From Falsiroseomonas oleicola (lineage in GTDB: Bacteria; Pseudomonadota; Alphaproteobacteria; Acetobacterales; Acetobacteraceae), in the NCBI RefSeq assembly GCF_019029495.1, contig NZ_JAERQM010000005.1, forward strand, positions 62,001-126,000: 64,000 nucleotides of DNA, given 5' to 3'. The notes beneath the pieces are model-generated. The model saw only the letters and a list, made by a program, of their open reading frames with translations. It was not told where the DNA came from and did not search any database. A program made the translations under genes and the position numbers. This document shows, one piece after another, positions 5,533-19,185 of this stretch (positions within the stretch are counted from its first letter, which is position 1; each line of letters begins with the position of its first letter).

Positions 5533-6030
5533 TCAGCCCAGCGCCGCGCGCAGTTCCGCCAGCGAGGCGTCGAGGCTGCGCCCGGCCGTGTCGATCCGCA
5601 GCGTCGGCCGGTCCCAGACCTCGTATTCGCGTCGTTGCACCGCGGGCCAATCCGGCGGAACCAGGCCGGCGATGTCGACCTGACGGGTTTCGACGCGGCG
5701 GCGATGCTCGTCGGGGTCGGAGCAGACCACCTCCACTTCGACGAAGCCCGCGCCTGTTGCCCGCGCCACATCGCGCCAGGCATCCCGGGTGATCCGCAGC
5801 GGGTTCACCGAATCAGCCACCACCGACAGGCCGAGCGACAGGTTCGCGCGCGCCACCACATAGCCCGCCATGTAGCCAGCCGGCCCGACCTCGGTGATGC
5901 CGCCATCGCGCATGGCCTGTTCGAGATGGTCGATGCGTATCCAGGCGGCGCCAAGCGCCTGCGCCAGTGCGCGGGAGAGGGTGGATTTGCCCGTGCCCGG
6001 AAGCCCGGCGAAGGCGATCAGCCGGCTCAC
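5533..6030 (-). CDS. Small AAA/kinase-type ATPase
   Basis: A 165-residue P-loop protein resembling nucleotide or small-molecule kinases (AAA_33/zeta-toxin-like fold). Walker A GLPGTGKST sits at residues 9-17. A DxxE-like segment IRIDHLEQAM follows near 32-41, and VVADSVNP near 68 looks like the Walker B region. No lid domain with a diagnostic motif is seen, so the substrate is unknown. The GTG start overlaps the stop of the upstream MOSC gene by 4 bp, so the two are probably co-translated. Confidence 0.75.
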   Translation of the reverse strand: MSRLIAFAGLPGTGKSTLSRALAQALGAAWIRIDHLEQAMRDGGITEVGPAGYMAGYVVARANLSLGLSVVADSVNPLRITRDAWRDVARATGAGFVEVEVVCSDPDEHRRRVETRQVDIAGLVPPDWPAVQRREYEVWDRPTLRIDTAGRSLDASLAELRAALG

Positions 6031-6569
6031 ACCCGCTCCAGCGCCAGATGCGGTTCCGCCGGCAGCACCACCCGCACCGCATCCCCCGCCGCCAGCTCGC
6101 CGCCCTCCAGCACCACCGCCATGATCCCGGCCCGCAGCAGCAGCGCCCCATCCGGCGCGCGTTCCAGCGTCGCCTTCATCAGGCCCTTTTGAAAACTGTC
6201 AAGCTGGTGGCAGGGGTTGCGCAGGCCGGTCACCTCGACCACGGCCGTTTCGCCCAGATGCAGCCGGGTGCCGCGCGGCAGGGCGAAGAGGTCGATGCCC
6301 TCGGTCGTCACATTCTCGCCCAGCGCGCCGGGGGCGACGCCAAAGCCCTGCGCTGCCAGGGAGTCCAGCCGCTCGGCCGGGATCAGATGGACCTGCCGCA
6401 GATTCGGCTGGTTGGGGTTCGCCTTCACGCGGGACCGGTGTTTCACCGTCACCCCGCAATGCGCGTCACCCTCCACGCCGAGGCCCGCCAGCAGCGTGAT
6501 CCGCGGCACAACCGGCTTTGAAAAGTCATGGCCGGACGAAGCCGCCACCGCCACCACACGTCCGTCCAT
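6027..6569 (-). CDS. MOSC domain protein
   Basis: A 180-residue single MOSC domain, a fold related to the molybdenum cofactor sulfurase C-terminus that carries or transfers sulfur to metal centres. Typical motifs are GVEGDAH near 32-38, GALGENVTTEGIDL near 81-94, and the conserved cysteine at about 120 in GLRNPCHQLDSF. The ATG at 6569 has GGAGA upstream. An in-frame upstream extension has no domain similarity and is excluded. It overlaps the kinase gene by 4 bp. The precise target is unknown. Confidence 0.85.
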   Translation of the reverse strand: MDGRVVAVAASSGHDFSKPVVPRITLLAGLGVEGDAHCGVTVKHRSRVKANPNQPNLRQVHLIPAERLDSLAAQGFGVAPGALGENVTTEGIDLFALPRGTRLHLGETAVVEVTGLRNPCHQLDSFQKGLMKATLERAPDGALLLRAGIMAVVLEGGELAAGDAVRVVLPAEPHLALERV

Positions 6570-6594
6570 TCCGAATCTCCGCCTGAGGCGGCGA

Positions 6595-7062
6595 TTATTG
6601 CAGGAATCCGATCCAGCGTCCCGCCAGCAGCGCGCCGAGCCACGCCGCCAGCGACACCGCCGCCGCCAGCCGCAGCCGTGCCCCCACCGGGCCGTCTGCC
6701 AAAGCCTCGCGCCAGGGCCGCCCGGCATGCAGCAGCGCCAGGTTGCCCAGCGCCAGCACCAGCAGCGCCAGCTTCGCCAGGAAGGCCGGATTTTCCAGAT
6801 AGGTCCCCGGCCGCGTGCTGAACAAGGCGAGGCCGGTCACCGCCGCCAGCCCCAGCCCGGTCGCCGCCACGCGCACCAGCGGCGGCGCCAACTGCCCCAG
6901 CGCCGAGGCCCGGAACAGCCCCAGCAGCCGCAGGTCCAGCGTCGCGATGGCGCCCACCAGCAGCCCGATGCCGAGCACATGCGCGGCATTGACCAGGAGA
7001 TAGAGCGTCACCGAGCCGCGCAGCGCCGCCGCGGGGGCGGAGGCCGCGATCAGGTCCAGCAA
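6595..7062 (-). CDS. Membrane protein, DUF6644/DUF2214-like
   Basis: A 155-residue integral membrane protein with about four hydrophobic helices (roughly 18-40, 58-78, 92-110 and 133-152) joined by short loops. The pattern NAAHVLGIGLLVGAIATLDLR resembles DUF6644/DUF2214-type proteins, which often sit beside DUF6152 proteins as here, six bases downstream of one. No catalytic motif is visible. Function is unknown; membership is from recalled family character, not a search. Confidence 0.65.
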   Translation of the reverse strand: MLDLIAASAPAAALRGSVTLYLLVNAAHVLGIGLLVGAIATLDLRLLGLFRASALGQLAPPLVRVAATGLGLAAVTGLALFSTRPGTYLENPAFLAKLALLVLALGNLALLHAGRPWREALADGPVGARLRLAAAVSLAAWLGALLAGRWIGFLQ

Positions 7063-7068
7063 GCGGTG

Positions 7069-7455
7069 TCAGCCGCCCTGGATACGCTCGGGGTAGAAGT
7101 CGAAGCGGCGGTTGCCGACGGTCAGCCGCACCGCCTTCAGCCGGCGTTCCGAACTGTCGCGGGACCGGTTGCCCAGCGCCACCACCTCCTGCCCCGGACG
7201 GAGGGAGGCTTCGGTGAAGCCGGCGCGGGCGGTCTGGCGCGGATTGCCCAGCTCCACCGTCCACATCTCGCCCTCCGCCTCGACACGCAAACTGGGGTGC
7301 GGTGGGCCGACATAGACCTCCCGCACCGTGCCGGTCAGCGTGCCCTGGTCGCCCTCGGCCCAGGACCAGCCGTGATGGGCGCGGGCGCCGGTGGCGACGG
7401 CGAGGCCGCCGATCAGGCCGAGCGCGCCGCGCCGGCCCAGTGATGTGAAGCGCAT
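7069..7455 (-). CDS. Exported DUF6152-like protein
   Basis: A 128-residue protein with an N-terminal signal (RRGALGLIGGLAVATGARA, Tat-like twin arginine at 8-9). The mature start AHHGWSWAEGD is the hallmark of DUF6152 proteins. The rest is a small beta-rich domain with a repeated V-V-L-G-N pattern suggesting an OB-like barrel. It is followed six bases later by the membrane protein gene and is probably co-transcribed with it. The conserved His-His after the signal may bind a metal; this is inference. Confidence 0.7.
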   Translation of the reverse strand: MRFTSLGRRGALGLIGGLAVATGARAHHGWSWAEGDQGTLTGTVREVYVGPPHPSLRVEAEGEMWTVELGNPRQTARAGFTEASLRPGQEVVALGNRSRDSSERRLKAVRLTVGNRRFDFYPERIQGG

Positions 7456-7545
7456 GTCATCTTTCTCCGTGCCTGCCGGGCAAGTTGGGTGCCGTGCCGC
7501 CCCTGTCGAGCGCGCGGCGATGACATCCTGTTCAGCCCCCCCGGG

Positions 7546-7788
7546 TCAGTTCGGCTGGCGGGCGGCGACGAAGGCGACGAGGTCTCCAAAGGTGGCGCAT
7601 TCGGCCAGTTGCTGGGCGTCCACCTCCGCCCCGCTGCGGCCCTCGATCTCCACGCTGATGAGGGTGTGGTTCAGGCTGTCCCAGCCTGGCACATCGGCGG
7701 CCGCCATCTCCGCCGTCAGGGCGATGTCGCGGTCGCCGATCACCTCCCGCGCAATGGCCTCAAGATCGGCGAGGGTGAAGGCGGGCAT
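7546..7788 (-). CDS. Acyl carrier protein
   Basis: An 80-residue carrier protein with the phosphopantetheine attachment motif GWDSLNH; the serine is residue 38. It has four predicted helices and is acidic overall, as usual for acyl carriers. It lacks the usual housekeeping acpP sequence and context, so it is a dedicated carrier. It is the last gene of the five-gene operon, and its ATG overlaps the stop of the acyl-AMP ligase gene by one base. The neighbour would load a fatty acid onto it. Confidence 0.9.
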   Translation of the reverse strand: MPAFTLADLEAIAREVIGDRDIALTAEMAAADVPGWDSLNHTLISVEIEGRSGAEVDAQQLAECATFGDLVAFVAARQPN

Positions 7789-9458
7789 CAGCTGTGCTCC
7801 CGGAACTGGGTGAGGTAGCGGCGGCGGTTTTCGTCACGGCTGATCTTGCCGCTGGTGCTTTTCACCAGCCAGCGTTCCGCGACGATGCGGACGTCGCGCG
7901 GCTTGACCAGGAAGGTCTCGGTGACGAGGCGGCTGATGGCGGCGCGGCATTCGGCCTCCGTCACGCCGGCACCGGCGTCGTATTCGGCGACGATCACCAG
8001 CTCCTCGCTGCCGGTCATCTCGCTGCACACGCCGAAGGCGACGGCGCGGCCGGCGCGGACACCCGGGATGCCAGCCAGCAGCGCCTCCACGTCACCGCCA
8101 AAAATGTTCTTGCCGTTGACGATGATGATTTCCTTGAGCCGGCCGAAGACGAAGACCTGCCCTTCCAGCACCGCGCCGAGATCGCCGGTGCGGAAGAAGC
8201 CATCCGCGCCGATGCCGGAGGATGCGGCGTCGCGGCCGCGATAGCCGGCGAAGAGGTCGGCGCCGCGCAGCCCGATCTCGCCGTAATGGCCTTCGGGAAG
8301 GCGTTGCGCGCCATCGAACACCGCCAACTCCATCCCCGGCAGCGGCTGGCCGCTGGAGAGCACCAGGCGATGACCTTCCGGCACTTCGTCCATGACCAGC
8401 CGCGCGGAGGTCGCGGCCATCGCCGTGCCCGGCGGAATGGCCGGCGGCACGGCGAGGCCCAGGCGCGTGGCGGGCCGGCCCTGGCTGACGGCGAAGACGG
8501 TCTCCGCCATGGCGTAGCAGCCGACCACGCTGTCGGGCCGCACGCCGAAATCGGCGAAGGCCGCCTCGAAGTCCCGCGCATCCTGAAGCCGGCAGGGCTC
8601 GGAGCAATCGACCCAGAGCCGCATCGTGTTCAACTGGGCCGGCTTCAACGCCCGCCGCAGCCGGACAAAATGCCGAAAGGCGAAATTCGGCATCCAGGCG
8701 ATGGTGCAGCCATCCGCCGCGATCATCTCGAAGAAGCGGCCCGGCGCGCCGATCCACTCGAAAGGGTCCATCAGCGACAGCGTATCACCGCCCAGCATCG
8801 GCAGCAGGAAGCCGGCGATCAGCCCCATGTCGTGATACAGCGGCAGCCAGGAGGCGATGGCCAGCCGTTCCGCCCCCACCTCCGCCCGCAGCCCGGGCCA
8901 ATAGGCCCGGAACTGCGCGGCCAGCATCAGGCCGCTGATCTCCACCGCCTTCTTGATGCCGGTGGTGCCGGAGCTGTGCTGCACGAACAGCGGCGCGTCG
9001 CTGGCCAGCCTGTCGCGCAGCGCGCCCAAAGCCGCCACCGAGTCCCCCGTCGCCTCCGCCGGCGCCAGCCGCACGCGCGGCGTCAACGCCGGGTCGATGC
9101 GGCCCACCATCGCCGCCATCGCCGGGTCCAGCACGCAGATCGCCGCCGGGTCGATGGCGCGCAGCGCGGCGCGCTGCTGGTCGAAGAAATGCCGCTGGTC
9201 CTGGATCGGCGAGGCCGGCGGGAAGAAGGCGCCGAGCCTTCCGGCGGCGGCGATGCCGAGGAACAGGGCCATCGCCTCCACCCCCGTCGTCGCCACCACC
9301 AGCACCAGCCCGCCGGGGGGCGCCTGCCGCGCCACCCATTCGGCGCGCGCCGTCACGCGCTGCCAGAAGTCCCGCCCGGTCACATCCCGGCGCTGGCCGC
9401 CGCGCCAATGGCGCAGCACCGTCACATCGAGCAGCGAGGCGGGCAGCAGTTCCGTCAC
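7788..9458 (-). CDS. Fatty acyl-AMP ligase-like adenylating enzyme
   Basis: A 556-residue ANL-superfamily enzyme predicted to activate a fatty acid as acyl-AMP and pass it to the adjacent carrier protein. The ATP-binding loop is HSSGTTGIKKAVE near 170. SWLPLYHDMGLI near 214 is the motif typical of FAAL-type enzymes. A7 is FFRTGDLG, the hinge is GRLKEIIIVNGKN, and the A10 catalytic lysine lies in STSGKISRDENRRRYL near the C-terminus. The ATG overlaps the upstream gene by 4 bp. Release to coenzyme A cannot be excluded, but the adjoining carrier protein argues for acyl-carrier transfer. Confidence 0.88.
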   Translation of the reverse strand: MTELLPASLLDVTVLRHWRGGQRRDVTGRDFWQRVTARAEWVARQAPPGGLVLVVATTGVEAMALFLGIAAAGRLGAFFPPASPIQDQRHFFDQQRAALRAIDPAAICVLDPAMAAMVGRIDPALTPRVRLAPAEATGDSVAALGALRDRLASDAPLFVQHSSGTTGIKKAVEISGLMLAAQFRAYWPGLRAEVGAERLAIASWLPLYHDMGLIAGFLLPMLGGDTLSLMDPFEWIGAPGRFFEMIAADGCTIAWMPNFAFRHFVRLRRALKPAQLNTMRLWVDCSEPCRLQDARDFEAAFADFGVRPDSVVGCYAMAETVFAVSQGRPATRLGLAVPPAIPPGTAMAATSARLVMDEVPEGHRLVLSSGQPLPGMELAVFDGAQRLPEGHYGEIGLRGADLFAGYRGRDAASSGIGADGFFRTGDLGAVLEGQVFVFGRLKEIIIVNGKNIFGGDVEALLAGIPGVRAGRAVAFGVCSEMTGSEELVIVAEYDAGAGVTEAECRAAISRLVTETFLVKPRDVRIVAERWLVKSTSGKISRDENRRRYLTQFREHS

Positions 9459-10495
9459 GATGCTTCGCCCGGCCGTGCGGCCAGGCCCCAGCGCATCAGG
9501 CAGCGCAGCAGGGACACGGCATAGCCATGCTCATAGGTCAGCCCCTCCGCGCTGTCGGCCTGGTCGTCATCCGCCCAGATGTAGCGCGGACGCGGATAGG
9601 GGGCGGAAATCAGCGCGGTCTCCCGATCGAGCCAGCTCACCGCGTCGCGGCCACCGCGCCGGCTCTGACTGGTCAGGATCAGGCGCGGGCGGTTCTGGCC
9701 GGTGGCGGCGGCCAGCGCGGCGCGCAGCGGGTCCAGGAAGGGGATCGGCGCGGCGGGATCGTCGATGCGGCAATCGCCCATCAGGAAGACCAGCCCCTCC
9801 GCCCGGCAGGACTGGCGGAAGGCCTCGGCTTTGGCGGCGATGGCGGCGCGCAGCCCGGCATAGTCCTGCGCCATCCAGGGCTCGCCACGATTGTGGTTCC
9901 ACACCGCGCCGCCATCGCGCCGCATGGCGATGCGCTGGCCCTGCGGGGTCACCGCCTCCCGCATCTCCGCCGGATCGGCGTAATGGGCGAAATCCGTGGC
10001 GATGGTCGCGGCCACCGTCTCTGCCTTGTGGACGGCGAGGCAGAAGGGGTTGTGCAGCGTGGCGAATTGCCCGGCCTCCCGGAACCCCCAGCGGTTCACC
10101 AGGGTCCAGGGCAGGCAATGCAGGCCAAGGGAGACAAGGGTCAGCGGCCCCCGCCGCAGCCCATGCAACCGCCCGCGAAACACCTGCCGCCGCGCCACTG
10201 CCTGCCAGACCGGCCGCAGCGCATCATCCGCCATGGCGCGTGGGCGAAGTTGGCTCAGCACCTGCTCGATCGCCGATGGCGGCAGGCAGGCACGCTCCCC
10301 GAAGCGCAGCAGGAACAGCAGATAGGCCTGGCTGGGCTCGGCGATCTCCGCCAGCCGCGCGCCCGCCTCGGCGATCAGCGCGTGGAATTCGCCATAGGCT
10401 TCGATATGGAACAGATGCCGCAGACGCGGGCCGATGGCGGATTCCCGCGTGAAATCCAGTGGCGCGGGCAGCGGTCGGGGCGCGAGCAGCGACAC
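9455..10495 (-). CDS. DUF1796-like putative cysteine peptidase/transferase, copy 2
   Basis: A 346-residue protein paralogous to the gene just upstream. Residues 1-110 are helical and poorly conserved. The C-terminal domain carries SLGLHCLPW (Cys127), a block with NPFCLAVH (His156), NHNRG near 195, VFLMGDCRIDD near 230, and IWADDDQADSAEGLTYEHGY near 310. The SLG-x-x-C followed by PF-x-x-x-x-H resembles DUF1796, described as papain-like cysteine peptidases. The GTG start directly abuts the stop of the upstream copy. Catalysis has not been shown for this arrangement; an acyltransfer role is equally possible given the acyl ligase next door. Confidence 0.6.
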   Translation of the reverse strand: MSLLAPRPLPAPLDFTRESAIGPRLRHLFHIEAYGEFHALIAEAGARLAEIAEPSQAYLLFLLRFGERACLPPSAIEQVLSQLRPRAMADDALRPVWQAVARRQVFRGRLHGLRRGPLTLVSLGLHCLPWTLVNRWGFREAGQFATLHNPFCLAVHKAETVAATIATDFAHYADPAEMREAVTPQGQRIAMRRDGGAVWNHNRGEPWMAQDYAGLRAAIAAKAEAFRQSCRAEGLVFLMGDCRIDDPAAPIPFLDPLRAALAAATGQNRPRLILTSQSRRGGRDAVSWLDRETALISAPYPRPRYIWADDDQADSAEGLTYEHGYAVSLLRCLMRWGLAARPGEAS

Positions 10496-11602
10496 TCAGC
10501 CCGCCTCCGGCATGGCCGTGTCTCGCACCAGGCCCCAGCCGGCCAGTGCTTCCAGCAGCGCCTCTACATAGGCGCCCTCGAAGGCGAGGCCGGCCTCGCT
10601 GTCGGCATAGTCGTCGTCATGCCAGACGTAGTCGGCGGCGGGGTAGGGGCAGTAGTGGAAGCTGGTGCTGGCATCGACCACATGGCGCCCGGGTGGATGC
10701 CGGCGGGCGGTCTGGTTGGTGATGACGATGCGGTTGCCTTGGCGGCCGGTGTACCGCGCCAGGGCGGCGTCCAGCCGTGGCAGGAAATCCAGTGGCTCCT
10801 CCGGATAGGCCACCTGGCAGCCGGCCAGCAGGAACACCGCATCCGGGCGGCGGCAGGCGGTGGCGAAGGCCGCCGCCTTCACGGCCAGGCCGGCGCGCAG
10901 CGGCGCCAGGTCCTGGCCCAGCCAATAGGCGCCGCGATTGTGGTTCCAGTGCGCCGAGCGGTCGGTGCGCATCGCCAGTTCATGCCCGCGCTGGGTCTTC
11001 ACCAGCCGCACCGCCTGGGGTGCGCAGAAGGCCTCGAACCCGCCTTCCAGCGCGGTGATGACGCCGGGGATGGTATGGCCGGCCAGGGAGAAGGGGCCGA
11101 ACAGCGGCGTGAAATCCGCCATCGCGCGCAGCCCCCAGCGCGCCGGCAGGGTCCAGGGCAGGCAGTTCAGGCCGAGGGAGAGGATGGCGCCGCCGCCGGT
11201 CACGCGACGGGGCAGGGCCTCCCGCCAGGCCTGCCGCTGCCGCACGGCCTTCCAGGCGAAGAGCAAAGCGGGGTCGGCCTGCGCGGCGGTTTCCGTGGCG
11301 GCGAGGCCGGCCGCGATCTCCGCCGCCGGCAGGCAGCAGCGTTCGGCGAAATGCAGGATGGTGGTCAGGCACTGGGTGCCGGCCCGCGCGGCAAGGGTGG
11401 TGTCCAGCCGGTTCAGCGCGGCGCGCGTCTCGGCCTGGAGGAGCGGATAGTCCTGCACCTCGAACAGGTAGCGCAGCAGCAGGAAGGTCGCCTGCGGATC
11501 GGTCGCCGCCGCGCCGCGCAGCACGGCCACCGCCCCCGGCAGGTCGCCCGATTCCCGAAGTCGCATGGCCTGGCGGCTGAGGTTGGCGTCCGTATTCGTC
11601 AT
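10496..11602 (-). CDS. DUF1796-like putative cysteine peptidase/transferase, copy 1
   Basis: A 368-residue protein with a TPR-like helical N-terminal part (about 1-125). Its C-terminal domain is shared with the next gene: SLGLNCLPW (Cys147), GPFSLAGH (His176), NHNRGAYW near 215, VFLLAGCQVAYPEEP near 250, and VWHDDDYADSEAGLAFEGAY near 340. All candidate catalytic residues are kept in both copies, which argues against a decayed duplicate. The shared order of motifs shows a tandem duplication that has diverged strongly. It lies 45 bp after the double methyltransferase gene. Not recognised as any characterised enzyme. Confidence 0.6.
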   Translation of the reverse strand: MTNTDANLSRQAMRLRESGDLPGAVAVLRGAAATDPQATFLLLRYLFEVQDYPLLQAETRAALNRLDTTLAARAGTQCLTTILHFAERCCLPAAEIAAGLAATETAAQADPALLFAWKAVRQRQAWREALPRRVTGGGAILSLGLNCLPWTLPARWGLRAMADFTPLFGPFSLAGHTIPGVITALEGGFEAFCAPQAVRLVKTQRGHELAMRTDRSAHWNHNRGAYWLGQDLAPLRAGLAVKAAAFATACRRPDAVFLLAGCQVAYPEEPLDFLPRLDAALARYTGRQGNRIVITNQTARRHPPGRHVVDASTSFHYCPYPAADYVWHDDDYADSEAGLAFEGAYVEALLEALAGWGLVRDTAMPEAG

Positions 11603-11647
11603 GTCTGGCGGTTCAATGCGACCCCGATTCCTGACGCCTGCAGGGCT

Positions 11648-13459
11648 TCACTCCGATGCGCAGGAAGGCCCGGTGCGGGCGGAAGCTGGCCCGGCGGGGG
11701 CCTTGTGGAGCGTAATCCCCATCTCGGCAAGGTCACGCAGCAACTGCCGGCCGAGCCTGACATAGTCACGCCGGTTCTCCGCCCAGCCCGTCGGCCGGCC
11801 ATCCGCCGCCAGCCCGGGCACGCCCTGGCGCTGCAGTTGCCGCCATACCGCCTGGCCGAGGATGCGGGCGAATTCGCCGCCCTCATCTCCCCCCAGCCCG
11901 GCCAGCGGCTCCATCGGTGGCTCCGCCTCCTCCGCACCGCTTTCGAAGCGCGGGCCGGCGAGGCCGATGCTGATATGGCCGCGCAGCGCCTCGGCCGCTT
12001 CCGGCCGGACGAGCTGCGCCACGATGAACAGGTCCCGCCCGCCGGACGCCGTGGGCGTGGCCTGCCAGTGGCCGGCACAGGTGATGTCGAAGCCGAAACG
12101 CTCCAGCAGCGGCCGCAGCAGGCCAAAGCTGTGATATTCCAGCCGCGTGCCGACCTGGCCGGGGCCGGCCACCGCCTCGGGCAGGTCGTGCAGCAGGCGG
12201 GCGAAGCCCTCCGCCGTGGTCGGATCGGCCAGGCTGAACGCCAGCCAGCCGCCTGGCTTCAACAGCAGCGCCGCGTTCAGCCAATAACCGACGAGATATT
12301 GCAGATCGACATGCATCAGCGCGTCGATGCTGACCACCGCATCGACCGTCCGCGCCAGATGCTCCCGCTCGAAGGCCGCGAGCATGCCATCGGGATGCAG
12401 GGGATCGATCGGCAGGAAGCCGAGCCGCCCTTCCTCCACATGCAGCGACAGCTTTGCCGCCGCCGCCTGCATCACCCGGTCGCTGACATCGAAGACGGTC
12501 AGCCGCAGCCGTGGCTGGCTGCGCAGCAGCGCCGCCGTGTAGCGCGCATCGCCCGGCCCGATCTCGATGGCATGACGCCAGGTCTCGACCTCCGCCGGCA
12601 CCAGGAGTTGCGCCAGCAATGCTTCCGCCGGCGGGCGACCGGCATGGCCGGCCAGGGCGCGCGGCACCTCCCGGTCCCACCATTCGGCGTAGGAGGCAGG
12701 CGGGCCGGCGGGTGCCGCCGCCGGGCGCAGCGCCGCGCGGAAGGCCGCGGCGCGGTCCGGAAAGACGAGGCGGGCCGACAGGTAAAGGTCGCGCGGTGGC
12801 CGGCCCTCATGGTTCGACCAGGATTCCAGCAGATCCACCACGAAGCCCAGCCGGTCGAGCACGGCGCGCACCATGTCGGTGGCGACATAGCCGAAGCGGT
12901 CGCAGGGGCGGCCCTGGAAGCGATGGAATCGCCGGATGTCGCGCAGGATCTTCTGGAAGCCGCTGGGGGTATTGGGGTCGGCCAGCGTCATCAGCAGCCG
13001 GCCGCCTGGTTTCAGCATCAGCGCCGCGTTCAGCCAGCAGGCGGTCAGCAGGCTGAGATCGGCCTGCAGCAGGCCGTCGATGGCGAGCACCGCGTCCACC
13101 TCGCCGGCCTGCCCGGCCGCGGCCAGCGTTTCCGCCATCAGCCCCGGTGCCGCCGTGTCCAGCGCTCGCACCGTGACCCGCCCGGCGGCGGCCAGGGGGG
13201 CGAGGCGCGTGGCGGTGGTGGCGCGGGTCGCCTCCCAGGCCTCGAAACACCAGCCGCGTGCCTTGGGGTTGAGGGCCAGAAGGCGTTCGGTGAAGCGGCC
13301 GCCGCCGCCGATCTCCACCACCCTGTGCCAGGTTGCGGGCTGGGCAGGGGCGAAGAGCTTGTCGAAGACGCGCTGCGCACCGGCATCACCTCTCCATTCG
13401 GGGGCGCCCGTCCGGTTCGGCGCCGGATCGGCGATCCGCCCAAGGCTCTGCTGCGTCAT
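11648..13459 (-). CDS. Protein with two tandem SAM-methyltransferase-like domains
   Basis: A 603-residue protein made of two related halves. Half one has motif I VVEIGGGGR (47-55), the acidic loop VLAIDGLLQADL near 125, and WLNAALMLKPGGRLLMTLADP (142-162). Half two repeats this with AIEIGPGDA (297-305), VVSIDALMHVDL near 375, and WLNAALLLKPGGWLAFSLADP (393-413). Both halves look like class I methyltransferases. The linker near 255-290 contains an EWWDREVPRALAGH segment. A C-terminal tail of about 100 residues follows. The start at 13459 was preferred to an upstream ATG whose extension has no domain character. First gene of the five-gene operon; the substrate may be the acyl product. Confidence 0.72.
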   Translation of the reverse strand: MTQQSLGRIADPAPNRTGAPEWRGDAGAQRVFDKLFAPAQPATWHRVVEIGGGGRFTERLLALNPKARGWCFEAWEATRATTATRLAPLAAAGRVTVRALDTAAPGLMAETLAAAGQAGEVDAVLAIDGLLQADLSLLTACWLNAALMLKPGGRLLMTLADPNTPSGFQKILRDIRRFHRFQGRPCDRFGYVATDMVRAVLDRLGFVVDLLESWSNHEGRPPRDLYLSARLVFPDRAAAFRAALRPAAAPAGPPASYAEWWDREVPRALAGHAGRPPAEALLAQLLVPAEVETWRHAIEIGPGDARYTAALLRSQPRLRLTVFDVSDRVMQAAAAKLSLHVEEGRLGFLPIDPLHPDGMLAAFEREHLARTVDAVVSIDALMHVDLQYLVGYWLNAALLLKPGGWLAFSLADPTTAEGFARLLHDLPEAVAGPGQVGTRLEYHSFGLLRPLLERFGFDITCAGHWQATPTASGGRDLFIVAQLVRPEAAEALRGHISIGLAGPRFESGAEEAEPPMEPLAGLGGDEGGEFARILGQAVWRQLQRQGVPGLAADGRPTGWAENRRDYVRLGRQLLRDLAEMGITLHKAPAGPASARTGPSCASE

Positions 13460-13720
13460 CGCGCCTCGCTGTTGCCGGCCGGAAGAAGGACCGGTGCCGC
13501 GGCTGCATGGACAAGGTGTTAAGCATAGAGGGCCGGGCTGTCGCGAGGGAAGTGTTGCGGTGCAGCGCATCGGCGGGCGCTAACGGGTCAGCGAAACCGT
13601 CGTGGTGGCAACAACTTTGCCATAGGCGCCGCCTATCTCGCCCAGAGGTTGATACCGCTTCCGCCCGCCCGTCTGGACGCTTAGGGTGCCGCTATCGGAA
13701 CCAACACAGGGAAGACGCAG
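13460..13720. promoter_or_regulatory. Divergent control region, methyltransferase operon and RTX gene
   Basis: This 261-bp gap must hold promoters for both outward genes. I see no strong consensus. A TTGATA near 13650 could be a -35 for the RTX gene, but no good -10 is spaced 16-18 bp from it. GGGAAG just before 13721 is the RTX ribosome binding site. Confidence 0.35.
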
Positions 13721-14341
13721 ATGCCCAACAAGATCGAAGACGCGGAACTGAACAAGGTTGTCGGTGGGGCCTTCCAGCAGGGCACGGCCGGCAACGACAC
13801 CCTGCTGGGAACCCCCCAGGCCGATGTGATCTTTGCCGGCGGCGGCAACGACCAGATCAACTCCGGCGCCGGCAACGACCAGGTCTATGGCGAGGCCGGC
13901 AGCGACTTCATCCACACCGGCGGGGGCAATGACCTGGCCTTCGGTGGCACCGGCAACGACACCATCAATGGCGGGGCGGGCCAGGACCAGTTGTATGGCG
14001 AGGACGGCAACGACTACCTGGATGGCGGCGCGGGCGATGGCGCGGCCGACCTGGCCTTCGGCGGCGCGGGCAATGACACCTTCATCTGGGCGCCGGGCGA
14101 TGGCAACGACCAGTTCGTCGGTGGCGCGGGCAATGACACGCTGAATGTCGTCGGCATGAGCCTGCATCAGCTCCAGTCGGCCCTGACGCTGGAAGGCAAC
14201 ACCAACCTGCAGATGCATGTGAACAACAACATCGTCACCTTCACCGATGCGCAGGGCAACCCGGCGACCTTCGGCGGCGTGATCAACTTCGGTGGCGAGA
14301 CGATGCGCTTCTCCGAGATCGAGCAGATCCGCATCGGCTGA
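13721..14341 (+). CDS. RTX calcium-binding protein with double-glycine-type leader
   Basis: A 206-residue protein with nonapeptide RTX repeats (GGxGNDxxx) from about residue 20 to 145. These form calcium-bound beta-rolls outside the cell. The N-terminus IEDAELNKVVGGAF resembles the leader of double-glycine peptides (E-L-x-x-V-x-G-G), normally cut by C39-type ABC exporters. The C-terminal 60 residues form a separate module ending GGETMRFSEIEQIRIG, like the uncut secretion end of RTX proteins. No type I secretion genes are in the window. Low in Cys and acidic, as expected. It diverges from the five-gene operon and ends at a hairpin. Confidence 0.85.
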   Translation: MPNKIEDAELNKVVGGAFQQGTAGNDTLLGTPQADVIFAGGGNDQINSGAGNDQVYGEAGSDFIHTGGGNDLAFGGTGNDTINGGAGQDQLYGEDGNDYLDGGAGDGAADLAFGGAGNDTFIWAPGDGNDQFVGGAGNDTLNVVGMSLHQLQSALTLEGNTNLQMHVNNNIVTFTDAQGNPATFGGVINFGGETMRFSEIEQIRIG

Positions 14342-14351
14342 TCCGGAACGG

Positions 14352-14373
14352 CCAGGCCGCCTCGGCGGCCTGG
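14352..14373 (+). terminator. Hairpin after RTX gene
   Basis: Inverted repeat CCAGGCCGCC/GGCGGCCTGG (14352-14361 and 14364-14373), eleven bases after the RTX stop, followed by CTTGAG. A likely terminator, although the U-run is poor. Confidence 0.6.
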
Positions 14374-14412
14374 CTTGAGAATGGCCGGCATCGCCACCCC
14401 CTGATGCCGGCT

Positions 14413-14457
14413 GGCAGGAAGGGCCTCCGCCCCCCCGCGATCCTGGCCCTTCCTGCC
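14413..14457. repeat. 13-bp perfect inverted repeat
   Basis: GGCAGGAAGGGCC at 14413-14425 pairs perfectly with GGCCCTTCCTGCC at 14445-14457 across a C-rich 19-base loop. It lies between the RTX terminator hairpin and the exonuclease gene. It could be a second terminator or an extragenic palindrome. Confidence 0.6.
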
Positions 14458-14521
14458 CCCCCAACCCGCGGCATGTATCGAACCTCTTGATCTCGCAGGG
14501 CTCCGCGCGATCTAGCAGGAC

Positions 14522-15580
14522 ATGCCCCACCCCCAGACCTGGATGCGCGTGACGCCGCAGGGCCTGTACTGCGTGCCCGGCGACTTCTTCATCGACCCGG
14601 CCCGCGCCGTGCCGCGCGCCATCGTCACCCATGGCCATGCCGACCACGCCCGCCCCGACCACGACCACGTGCTGGCCAGCGACGCGACGCTGGCGATCAT
14701 GCGCACCCGGATGGGCGAGGGCCGCGCCGGCCGGACGCAGCAGGTGGCGCCGATGGGGGAGGTCATCCACCACAATGGCGTGGACATCCGCCTGGTGCCG
14801 GCCGGGCATGTGCTCGGCTCCTGCCAGGTGGTGCTGGACTGGCAGGGCAGCCGCATCGTCATCTCCGGCGACTACAAGCGCCGCCCCGATCCCACCTGCC
14901 TGCCCTTCGAGCCGGTCACCTGCGATGTCTTCGTCACCGAGGCGACCTTCGGCCTGCCGGTCTTCCGGCACCCGGACCCGGCCGACGAGATCGCCCGCCT
15001 GCTGCACAGCCTGCGGCTGTTCCCCGACCGCGCGCATCTGATCGGCGCCTATGCGCTGGGCAAGGCGCAGCGGTTGATTGCGCTGCTGCGCCAGGCGGGC
15101 TGGGACCGGCCGATTTTCCTTCACGGCGCGCTGCTGGCGCTGTGCGGATTGTACGAAGGGTTCGGTGTGAAGCTCGGCCCGCTGGAGCCGGTGCCGCTTC
15201 CACAGAAACGCGGCGCCGGCGGGCTGCTGGCCGGGGAGGTGGTGCTGGCGCCACCGGGGGCGGAGGCCACCGCCTGGGTGCGGCGCCTCGCCGATCCGGT
15301 GATCTGCGCCGCTTCCGGCTGGATGCGGGTGCGGCAGCGTGCCAAGGCCAGGGGCGTGGAACTGCCGCTGATCCTCTCCGACCACGCCGATTGGGACGAG
15401 CTTCTGGCCACGACGGCGGAGGTGCAGGCGCCGGAGATCTGGGTGACGCATGGCCGCGACGATGCGCTGGTGCATGCGCTGGCGCTGCGCGGCATCAAGG
15501 GCCGCGCGCTGTATCTGCTGGGACGGGGCGAGGAGGATGAGGAGCCGGCGGCCGAGCCCGTGGCCGAGGCCTCCGCATGA
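14522..15580 (+). CDS. Ligase-associated DNA damage response exonuclease
   Basis: A 352-residue metallo-beta-lactamase/beta-CASP protein of the Xnuc_lig_assoc family, related to mRNA 3'-end nucleases and SNM1, predicted to trim DNA ends for the ligase. The zinc motif THGHADHA lies at 36-43, a second histidine is in PAGHVLGSCQ near 101, and SGDYKRR is near 120. Later motifs are ASGW near 265 and LSDHADW near 285. Its ATGA overlap with the ligase gene shows coupling. Helicase and phosphoesterase of the same system are at 2187-5488, nine kilobases away. Confidence 0.92.
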   Translation: MPHPQTWMRVTPQGLYCVPGDFFIDPARAVPRAIVTHGHADHARPDHDHVLASDATLAIMRTRMGEGRAGRTQQVAPMGEVIHHNGVDIRLVPAGHVLGSCQVVLDWQGSRIVISGDYKRRPDPTCLPFEPVTCDVFVTEATFGLPVFRHPDPADEIARLLHSLRLFPDRAHLIGAYALGKAQRLIALLRQAGWDRPIFLHGALLALCGLYEGFGVKLGPLEPVPLPQKRGAGGLLAGEVVLAPPGAEATAWVRRLADPVICAASGWMRVRQRAKARGVELPLILSDHADWDELLATTAEVQAPEIWVTHGRDDALVHALALRGIKGRALYLLGRGEEDEEPAAEPVAEASA

Positions 15581-17213: not shown

Positions 17214-18185
17214 CTACGCCGCCGCGGCCAGCGCCTCGCGCCGCAGCAGCGCCGTCAGATGCGCGGCGATGGCGCCCATGCCGGTCTGCGCGCCGCTGCG
17301 GCCGGCGCGGGCCTCGGCCTCGGGGTTGTAGTTGGTGTTGGTGTTGACGTCGTAGGCGAAGCTGTTGCCCTGCCGGTCGGTGATGAATTCGATGGCGCCC
17401 ACGCCGATCTGGTTGGCCAGCAGGAAGGCCTCCATCCGGTGGATCAGCGGATGCTGGAAGCCTTCCTGGATGACGAACTTCTGGCTTGGCGCGACCGCCG
17501 GGCAGACCTCGCCCTCCGCGACATCGCAGGCATCCGCAGGGCAGAGCTGGAAGCCCTCCGAAGTATCGACGCGCACGGCATAGAGAAACCGCCCGCCGAC
17601 GAATTCGGCGCGGGTGATGAAGGGCTCCGCCGCCTCGATGTAGCGCTGCACCAGCCAGATGCCGTCGCGCGGATGCGCCTCCGGGTCATCCGTCACCTCC
17701 AGCAGCGACAGCGCCTCATGCAGCGCCGCCTCGCTCTTCAGCAGGCGGACGCCGAGGCCCTTGCCGGCGCGGTTGTGCTTCAGGATGATCGGATAGCCGA
17801 GCTTGGCGGCGGCCTCCGGGATGTTCTCCCGCCCCACCACGGCCAGCGTCGCCGGCACCGGGATGCCGTGGATCGCCAGCGCCTGGTATTGCGCGACCTT
17901 GGAGAGTTCGAGCTGCAGCGCGCGGCGGCCATTCACCAGCGGGCGGTTGTGCCGTTCCAGCACCTCGATCACCGCGCCCGCATATTCCGGCGCATAGACA
18001 TGGCCGCGGGTGTGGGAGGAGGCGCTCATCCGGTTGTAGAAAACGCCCTGCGGCGGCGGCCGCGTCAGGTCGATCACGCCCCGATCCAGGAACCACTCCT
18101 CATAGGACGTGCCGAGCGCGGCGAAGGCGCTGCGCAGCGGCGCCACCCAGGCGTCGTTCTCGTGGATGACATGGACCTTGGTCAT
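17214..18185 (-). CDS. ATP-grasp (RimK-like) ligase
   Basis: A 323-residue ATP-grasp enzyme, a family that joins a carboxylate to an amine or thiol using ATP. The ATP-grasp core spans about 100-300: YPIILKHNRAGKGLGVRLL near 165, EPFITRAEFVGGRFLYAVRV near 218, and a metal-binding IEFITDRQGNSFAYDVNTNTNYN near 280. It resembles RimK-type alpha-L-glutamate ligases, but the substrate is unknown. The ATG at 18185 lies downstream of two hairpins. The last gene of a three-gene set with a metallophosphoesterase and a peptide-type binding protein. Confidence 0.8.
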   Translation of the reverse strand: MTKVHVIHENDAWVAPLRSAFAALGTSYEEWFLDRGVIDLTRPPPQGVFYNRMSASSHTRGHVYAPEYAGAVIEVLERHNRPLVNGRRALQLELSKVAQYQALAIHGIPVPATLAVVGRENIPEAAAKLGYPIILKHNRAGKGLGVRLLKSEAALHEALSLLEVTDDPEAHPRDGIWLVQRYIEAAEPFITRAEFVGGRFLYAVRVDTSEGFQLCPADACDVAEGEVCPAVAPSQKFVIQEGFQHPLIHRMEAFLLANQIGVGAIEFITDRQGNSFAYDVNTNTNYNPEAEARAGRSGAQTGMGAIAAHLTALLRREALAAAA

Positions 18186-18195
18186 GGTCGGGACC

Positions 18196-18222
18196 CTCTC
18201 GGCGGCAATTTCACGCCGAGAG
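18196..18222 (-). promoter_or_regulatory. Hairpin covering the ATP-grasp ribosome binding site
   Basis: Perfect 9-bp stem CTCTCGGCG/CGCCGAGAG. Its 3' arm contains the GAGAGGG that serves the ATG at 18185, so the folded form would hide the ribosome binding site. Confidence 0.5.
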
Positions 18223-18249
18223 AAGAGGATTTTTCTGCGACAAGGCAAT

Positions 18250-18290
18250 AGCGGCGGAAGAGAAAGATTTTTATTCCTCTCTGCGCCGCT
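18250..18290 (-). promoter_or_regulatory. Leader stem-loop between phosphoesterase and ATP-grasp genes
   Basis: Inverted repeat AGCGGCG/CGCCGCT (18250-18256 and 18284-18290) with a second inner AGAGA/TCTCT pairing around an A/T-rich loop. It lies in an unusually A/T-rich 124-bp gap. It could end transcription from the phosphoesterase gene or act with the next hairpin. Confidence 0.45.
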
Positions 18291-18309
18291 ATCTCGGAAG
18301 AATCCCGCC

Positions 18310-19185
18310 TTACTCCGCTGCGTCGTCGAGCACGGTCTGCTCCGCCGGCGGCGGGCAGGGCGGCATGTCGCGCAGGAACTTGTAGCGGCCATGCTCCTTC
18401 AGCACGGCCAGGTCATGCGCCACGGCGCCCGGCATGGGCAGCTCCGTCACCACCGCCTCCGGACCCGAGAAATCGACCGCCAGCGCACCGATGGCGGGTG
18501 TGCCGCCATGGCTGGCGGAGCCCAGGAAGGCCAGAGCCGGCAGCCAGAGGTGGCGGATGCCGTCCACCACCCGGTCGCGGCTGGCATGCAGATGGCCGCT
18601 GATGACCATCTTCACCCCGCCCGCCTCCAGCAGCGGCAGCAGCGCCGCGCGGGGCGCCGGGTTGATGGAGCTGGCGGTGGGCTGGTCCTCCGCCGCCGTC
18701 TCGATGAACAGCGGCTTGTGCAGCACCAGCGCCACGGGGCGGCCCTCGGCGCCGTCGATATGCTGCGTCATCCAGGCCATCTGCTCCACCTCCTGCGGCA
18801 GGGAGGAGCCGAGAAGCTGCGCATTCAGGCCGATCAGCCGCCAGGCGCCGACATCCAGCGCGAAGCGGTCGGCGCCGAAGGCCTCGTCCCAGCGCGCCAG
18901 GCGCGGGCCGTCGACGATCTGCGCCGGGTCCTGGCCGGGCGGCTCGTCGCCCACGTCATGGTTGCCGGGGATGGCCAGCACCTGGCCGCGCAGGCGGGAC
19001 AGGGCGCGGGCGGCGAAGTCCATCTCCTCGTCGCTGTCCGGGCCGTTGATGCAGAGGTCACCCGTGACGATCACCGCCTCCGCCATCGCATCATTGGCGG
19101 CATCGCAGGCGATCCGGAAATTGTCCCAGAAGAAGCCATGGGTGGGGGAGAGATGCAGGTCGGAGAGGAAGACGATCTTGCTCAT
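18310..19185 (-). CDS. Calcineurin-like metallophosphoesterase
   Basis: A 291-residue metallophosphoesterase of the 3',5'-cyclic phosphodiesterase/purple phosphatase fold. Metal motifs are in order: FLSDLHLSPTHG (6-17), VTGDLCINGPDSDEEMDFAA near 41, IPGNHDVGDE near 73, LHKPLF near 155, and ISGHLHASRDR near 196. It is cytoplasmic (no signal). The resemblance to CpdA-type enzymes is real, but the substrate is not established. Start ATG 19185; it begins 14 bp after the binding protein gene and is probably in the same transcript. Confidence 0.82.
   Translation of the reverse strand: MSKIVFLSDLHLSPTHGFFWDNFRIACDAANDAMAEAVIVTGDLCINGPDSDEEMDFAARALSRLRGQVLAIPGNHDVGDEPPGQDPAQIVDGPRLARWDEAFGADRFALDVGAWRLIGLNAQLLGSSLPQEVEQMAWMTQHIDGAEGRPVALVLHKPLFIETAAEDQPTASSINPAPRAALLPLLEAGGVKMVISGHLHASRDRVVDGIRHLWLPALAFLGSASHGGTPAIGALAVDFSGPEAVVTELPMPGAVAHDLAVLKEHGRYKFLRDMPPCPPPAEQTVLDDAAE

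Follow-up and report, generated by a model that had tools for sequence, protein, structure and literature searches.

The D-alanylation of teichoic acids, the work of DltA and DltC with DltB and DltD, starts from a dedicated carrier charged by an adenylating enzyme and ends in the esterification of an envelope polymer. The operon described here would share this loading logic. It occupies positions 7546 to 13459 of a 64,000-nucleotide stretch of Falsiroseomonas oleicola DNA (assembly GCF_019029495.1, contig NZ_JAERQM010000005.1, positions 62,001 to 126,000; "the window" means this whole stretch), and its five genes encode an acyl carrier protein (ACP), a fatty acyl-AMP ligase (FAAL)-like enzyme, two proteins related to the DUF1796 family (A and B), and a double methyltransferase. 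On sequence and structure comparison we hold, at about even confidence, that A and B are acyltransferases fed by the carrier, with a sugar as the probable acceptor. The operon differs from Dlt in its acyl-AMP ligase type and its predicted cytosolic Cys/His proteins, and no MBOAT-type (DltB) or DltD match was found among the 10 proteins scanned around it, the rest of the genome lying outside this search.

Butirosin biosynthesis, of which BtrI is the ACP, provides a second comparison; here the likeness is the logic of a dedicated carrier with a Cys-type transferase. BtrH is described in PMC10318531 as a papain-like ACP:aminoglycoside acyltransferase, and is thus a precedent for a papain-like transferase that depends on a carrier. 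Neither A nor B matches BtrH_N (PF14399) at E values up to 1, however, and the loading enzyme, and presumably the acceptor, differ as well. The FAAL-ACP starter modules of lipopeptide and polyketide pathways are also similar, in that the ligase has a polyketide-synthase chain and mycobacterial FadD enzymes among its Protein Data Bank (PDB) relatives, but no megasynthase was seen here, and a small transferase would receive the acyl group.

The nearest family to A and B is DUF1796 (PF08795, "putative papain-like cysteine peptidase"), with which they share invariant Gly, Cys, and His columns. They differ from it in about 130 additional N-terminal TPR-like residues and in the company of a FAAL-like enzyme and an ACP. 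Because both miss the Pfam cut-off (B scores 16 bits, below the required 23, and A has no match), we call them DUF1796-related rather than members. Our literature search found no paper on DUF1796 or PF08795, none joining a papain-like protein with an ACP and a FAAL, none joining FkbH and a glyceryl-ACP with polysaccharide, and none on a Roseomonas ACP with an AMP ligase. DUF1796 is not named in the main text of PMC10318531.

Organization of the operon

All five open reading frames lie on the minus strand, in the order ACP, FAAL-like enzyme, A, B, and methyltransferase by rising coordinate. The features are as follows.

7546..7788, minus strand: acyl carrier protein (80 aa); Pfam PP-binding 21.6 bits, cut-off 20.8; 76-84% identity in three congeners.
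7675..7677, minus strand: codon of carrier Ser38 (GWDSL), predicted phosphopantetheine site from its motif position.
7788..9458, minus strand: fatty acyl-AMP ligase-like enzyme (556 aa); AMP-binding 125 bits; SSGTTG and SGKISR motifs.
9455..10495, minus strand: DUF1796-related protein A (346 aa), predicted acyltransferase; 40% identity to B; Cys127 and His201 at invariant columns.
10115..10117, minus strand: codon of A Cys127 (SLGLHC); column invariant in 23/23 and 17/17 rows.
9893..9895, minus strand: codon of A His201 (WNHNRG); column invariant in 23/23 and 17/17 rows.
10496..11602, minus strand: DUF1796-related protein B (368 aa); AlphaFold2 model; sub-threshold DUF1796 score; profile-profile match to canonical DUF1796.
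11162..11164, minus strand: codon of B Cys147 (SLGLNC), predicted nucleophile just ahead of a helix; invariant, with helix 148-155 in the model.
10940..10942, minus strand: codon of B His221 (WNHNRG), predicted general base; invariant column.
11648..13459, minus strand: double methyltransferase (603 aa); Methyltransf_12 over two stretches, 50 bits; EIGGG and EIGPG motifs.
12728..13378, minus strand: N-terminal methyltransferase repeat (about residues 28-244), from internal BLASTP.
11972..12628, minus strand: C-terminal methyltransferase repeat (about residues 278-496), from internal BLASTP and Pfam.

The first-pass annotation of this DNA had described five minus-strand genes with short junctions, a carrier with a Ser38 motif, an acyl-activating enzyme paired with it, and a 603-residue protein with two methyltransferase domains. 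All of this agrees with the present analysis: the junctions measure -1, -4, 0, and +45 bp in coordinate order, Ser38 falls within "DSL", and the ligase and carrier have the Pfam scores given above. The methyltransferase is an internal duplication, its repeats being 34% identical across 219 columns; an alternative start at 13570 would lengthen this protein to 640 aa. A and B are tandem paralogs with 40% identity, and no strong hydrophobic segment was found in the sequence of either. Three other Falsiroseomonas genomes have the same gene order, with proteins 53-84% identical, so the arrangement is not a chance one.

That a FAAL and an ACP together yield acyl-ACP is established chemistry for both families. 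The relatives of the ligase with solved structures, from a PDB search, include FadD32, FadD23, a fatty acyl-adenylate ligase, and a polyketide-synthase chain, and in the FAAL-specific insertion region it aligns with the last of these without a large gap. The genome has two places matching the ACPS family (PF01648).

Active site and fold of A and B

Two alignments were used to define the active site. The first (A3) holds 23 DUF1796-related proteins, the most distant of them 17% identical to B, and omits an interrupted copy in genome G419 (locus L062), a fused double copy in G413 (L063), a contig-end fragment in G260, and the weak match in G015. The second holds 17 catalytic domains, eight of them canonical DUF1796 from alphaproteobacteria and Bacillota plasmids. 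In both, the only invariant columns are Gly144, Cys147, and His221 (B numbering). The first-pass annotation had proposed the Cys/His pairs 127/156 in A and 147/176 in B. Its cysteines stand, but its histidines give way to His201 in A and His221 in B; we rejected the Cys147/His176 dyad because His176 is kept in only 16/23 and 6/17 rows. Loss of Cys and His in orthologs, which the annotation had named as evidence against a functional unit, was seen in none of the aligned rows. In G413 (L063 7614-10205, minus strand) two such domains share one reading frame, and by eye both residues are gone from the second, which may be a non-catalytic partner.

Kinship with DUF1796 emerges from profile-profile comparison. 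Ten relatives (A1) compared with eight canonical DUF1796 proteins (A6) gave 96% probability, with an E value of 1.6e-9 over 150 columns and Cys aligned on Cys; restricting the comparison to the catalytic domains of the operon proteins (A4) gave 90.5% and 1.4e-6 against canonical DUF1796. One relative found with the A1 profile scores 31.7 bits with DUF1796, over the Pfam cut-off.

An AlphaFold2 model of B (mean predicted local distance difference test score 89.5) consists of TPR-like N-terminal helices (about 1-132) followed by an alpha/beta domain (about 134-368). Cys147 precedes helix 148-155 and His221 comes after strand 217-219, an arrangement with Cys at a helix start and His later in the sequence, as in papain-like enzymes. 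In a Foldseek search of the BFVD database, five of the top six rows for B are named papain-like cysteine peptidase (E values of 4.9e-4 to 6e-2, four of them between 5e-4 and 4e-3), and the template modelling (TM) scores of these BFVD rows over the B query are low, at 0.32-0.41. The best BFVD match of B is A0A7M3UP73 from Pyramimonas orientalis virus; it bears the name glycosyltransferase and may be a glycosyltransferase fused to a DUF1796-like domain. Whole B matched TPR proteins and other helical chains in the PDB. With its catalytic domain as the query, Foldseek found nothing significant, and the VIA rows were middling; judged from the ends of the matched ranges, Cys147 may fall close to the catalytic Ser of PAF acetylhydrolase. 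A sequence search of solved structures gave three histidine-acid-phosphatase rows at E 0.13-0.15, which were taken as chance.

These names raise the question of whether A and B are simply genuine cysteine peptidases that are co-transcribed by accident, a view to which we give hardly any credence. Pfam and NCBI both name the related family "putative cysteine peptidase", and the Cys-then-His order fits. However, the family name is itself only a prediction, and carrier and sugar neighbours recur in several phyla. For the cysteine peptidase activity that the first-pass annotation had entertained, we found no positive evidence beyond that name.

Association with ligases and carriers in the Acetobacteraceae

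A profile of ten DUF1796-related proteins ("DUF" below) was run against 397 Acetobacteraceae genomes from 102 genera. Please note that only the best five or fewer DUF candidates and the best three or fewer FAAL candidates per genome were scored, so genome counts may miss matches. DUF matches occur in 18 of the 397 genomes and 12 of the 102 genera, including the weakest scorers, G015 and G413. In eight of the 18 (G000, G001, G002, G007, G173, G050, G260, and G385; five genera), DUF, FAAL, and ACP genes are adjacent on one strand. The double-methyltransferase relative is present in five of these eight loci, and thus lies outside the conserved core; G173 has a methyltransferase, a single B-type DUF, a FAAL, and an ACP. 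The conserved co-occurrence that the first-pass annotation had proposed to look for among the five families holds across genera for DUF, FAAL, and ACP.

The reverse search found the FAAL in 38/397 genomes (E 1e-60) and 22/102 genera. Both genes are present in 14 genomes against 1.7 expected (hypergeometric 1e-12). By genus, FAAL is found in 10 of the 12 DUF genera against 22 of 102 overall (1.6e-6), and both genes share one genome in 9 of the 12 (3e-5); relatedness is uncorrected in all three values. In the FAAL tree, the window sequence groups with G173, G198, G103, and G260 in a clade of eight that has full support; G103 carries its DUF and FAAL on separate contigs, and the FAAL of G198 abuts a contig end. 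The deep forks of the DUF tree are weak, and the association changes four times on that tree and three times on the FAAL tree.

Peptidase-like genes standing alone had been named by the first-pass annotation as grounds for refutation. This was found in part: 10 of the 18 DUF genomes have no FAAL-ACP pair beside the DUF gene, and six of these 10, the weakly matching G015 included, carry this FAAL type elsewhere. In addition, G007 and G260 have an extra DUF copy away from FAAL-ACP, that of G260 ending at a contig end. The link between DUF and FAAL is strong, not strict. No protein of the operon other than A and B is a candidate for passing the acyl chain on. The co-occurrence is conserved across genera, and the most economical reading is the one that the first-pass annotation had supposed, in which the Cys/His proteins transfer the acyl group.

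Instead of transferring the acyl chain, A and B might release or recycle it, as acyl-ACP thioesterases or editing hydrolases; we judge this distinctly improbable. Two kept paralogs and ATP-dependent loading would make plain release wasteful, and a hydrolase is hard to square with the sugar-linked relatives that have no carrier.

Four DUF genomes have no FAAL of this type at the threshold (G343, G419, G413, and G315), and in the first three an FkbH-type protein and an ACP-like gene adjoin the DUF gene. In G343, an FkbH_N protein (48.6 bits) with an ACP-like open reading frame upstream (by eye) is convergent to the DUF gene. The arrangement is repeated in G419 (FkbH_N 47.2 bits), where the DUF frame is broken by a transposase-like insertion (by eye; L062 8128-11292). 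G413 has, on one strand, an ACP-like gene (25 bits with the ACP profile), an FkbH homologue, and the fused double DUF; the homologue is 46% identical to the G343 protein over 552 columns and has no Pfam match. The DUF1796 score of G315 is canonical, and a weak glycosyltransferase match adjoins it. A passage of PMC10143770 describes probable glycerate loading by FkbH domains in one pathway. Like such FkbH-ACP pairs, these three loci set a carrier-loading enzyme beside a DUF1796-related gene; they differ from our operon in that the activating enzyme is unrelated and, in G343 and G419, convergent with the DUF gene rather than in one operon with it. This pattern suggests that FkbH and ACP could form a second carrier route for DUF proteins in G343, G419, and G413.

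FAAL-ACP pairs also have other neighbours. A cluster in G156 (L104 988-5760, minus strand) combines FAAL and ACP genes with those for an FkbM-type methyltransferase and an Acyl_transf_3 protein, a hint that membrane acyltransferases could fill the same role as DUF proteins. Two DUF-less pairs (L105 2929-6146 and L107 386-5463) adjoin TPR proteins, one with a GT-D-like domain.

Outside the family, B and the relatives at L056 and L059 matched nothing in plasmids. A3, run against a phylum sample of 398 genomes (E 1e-8, best five or fewer candidates per genome), matched only the window's own genome, and missed even the canonical-DUF1796 genomes of the same sample. Those number 4/398, against 0/14 control genomes.

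Sugar genes around the wider DUF1796 family

Sugar-pathway genes lie near three of five alphaproteobacterial DUF1796 loci (G620, G704, and one of two in G110), and by eye there are none at the other two. In G620, Polysacc_synt_2, Epimerase_2, and RmlD_sub_bind genes precede the DUF1796 gene (79 bits). Canonical DUF1796 matches 32 plasmid records, 31 of them from Priestia. We opened six Bacillota plasmid loci from these records, hand-picked as the two top Priestia matches, one further Priestia, and the three most divergent records; all six have nucleotide-sugar and/or glycosyltransferase genes nearby (one has galE only, beside the record end). As many as five DUF1796 places occur in the Priestia plasmids (L153, L154, and L157), and the ones that we opened are surrounded by sugar-pathway genes. 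Canonical DUF1796 also matched one phage record, across 28% of the query. Within the Acetobacteraceae, G343 and G385 have glycosyltransferase genes next to DUF, as does G315 with a match below the Pfam cut-off; a TylF-type methyltransferase adjoins it in G103 and an FkbM methyltransferase in G156.

Giant viruses offer a parallel. Passages of PMC10117803 and PMC9614988 place two "papain-like" proteins of Moumouvirus australiensis and Cotonvirus inside a glycan gene cluster that also encodes a 4,6-dehydratase/5-epimerase, a 4-reductase, and a 2-epimerase; the authors there call the two proteins unrelated to glycosylation. From their names and the BFVD fold match, we infer that these are DUF1796 proteins.

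It is here that a small-molecule pathway has to be weighed, in which BtrH- or RifF-like transferases (amide or ester synthases) would put the acyl group on a soluble metabolite rather than on an envelope glycan. FAAL-ACP pairs commonly start lipopeptide and polyketide pathways, the operon is without a glycosyltransferase, and the ACP-dependent papain-like transferase documented in PMC10318531 acts on an antibiotic. Against this, inspection by eye of the first 65 residues of the predicted window gene products showed no nonribosomal peptide synthetase or polyketide synthase, and the wider DUF1796 family sits with sugar genes. We consider such a pathway unlikely, but a serious competitor.

Proposed pathway

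If A and B are carrier-fed acyltransferases, the FAAL-like enzyme would adenylate a carboxylic, probably fatty, acid and load it onto the phosphopantetheine of the dedicated ACP. Cys147 of B or Cys127 of A, activated by His221 or His201, would accept the carrier's acyl group in thioester linkage and then pass it to an acceptor hydroxyl or amine, most likely on a nucleotide-sugar or glycan. The TPR-like N-terminal helices probably dock partners, the duplicated methyltransferase may methylate the acceptor or the acyl chain, and the two intact Cys/His copies could correspond to two acylation sites or substrates.

Several observations weigh against this scheme. None of the five genes of the operon is a sugar gene, and it is the relatives, rather than the operon, that point to a sugar acceptor. 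The fold of B is not demonstrably papain-like. There are many FAAL-ACP pairs without a nearby DUF gene, and some DUF genes are solitary. Finally, the best NCBIfam model for the ligase is long-chain-fatty-acid--CoA ligase (244.6 bits, cut-off 572), and it scores 210.1 bits with the "fatty acyl-AMP ligase" model (cut-off 600); we label it FAAL-like because it reaches no curated NCBIfam FAAL cut-off.

Genomic site and neighbouring genes

B has matches in three of the 14 other Falsiroseomonas genomes (G001, G002, and G007) and none in the remaining 11. All three carry the five genes in the same order and the same place. This site (window 5533-14522) is bounded by an Lhr-type helicase gene (Pfam WH_Lhr) and a putative metallo-hydrolase gene (Lactamase_B 21.2 bits, just below cut-off). 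The latter is present in 15/15 genomes of the genus; compared with the window copy, it has 82-85% identity in the three other carriers and 75-78% in the 11 genomes without the operon. In the non-carriers G004 and G011, the helicase and metallo-hydrolase matches end 89-122 bp apart, and the site is nearly empty. Gene content was inspected in five non-carriers (G003, G005, G006, G008, and G009): G003 and G005 have a glycosyltransferase at the site (Glyco_transf_61 with Glyco_tranf_2_4), and G009 has a Branch-type glycosyltransferase and an FkbM methyltransferase. Being present in few congeners and at a variable site, the operon is a clade-specific accessory block.

An RTX-repeat protein (13721-14341, plus strand; HemolysinCabind 99 bits) is encoded divergently from the operon, which brings up protein acylation. 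Adjacency in the window favours the RTX protein as a target, as does the use of acyl-ACP by RTX-activating acyltransferases. The known RTX acyltransferases belong to a different family, however, and the RTX protein has no match at the operon loci of the three congeners; we think protein acylation highly improbable. An ATP-grasp-like protein (17214-18392, minus strand) lies near the operon with no evident link to it. A defence system was rejected: PADLOC gave one partial 33-bit mad2 match, to the methyltransferase, and none on the other four proteins.

What the operon may tell us about DUF1796

We advance a broader proposal more tentatively, and would sooner expect to see it amended than left standing. 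DUF1796 and its relatives may be trans-domain Cys/His glycan acyltransferases, found in bacteria, plasmids, and giant viruses and misnamed as peptidases, to which those of the Acetobacteraceae would have added FAAL-ACP or FkbH-ACP donors. Their catalytic domain is possibly an SGNH-type esterase-like alpha/beta domain, with Cys replacing the nucleophilic Ser, and not a papain fold.

A family named by prediction only, which occurs in bacteria and plasmids and, judging by names and fold matches, in giant viruses as well, thereby gains a testable function, and the exact Cys and His for mutation are now defined. If the proposal is true, the "papain-like" proteins in the glycan clusters of giant viruses would be sugar-modifying enzymes.

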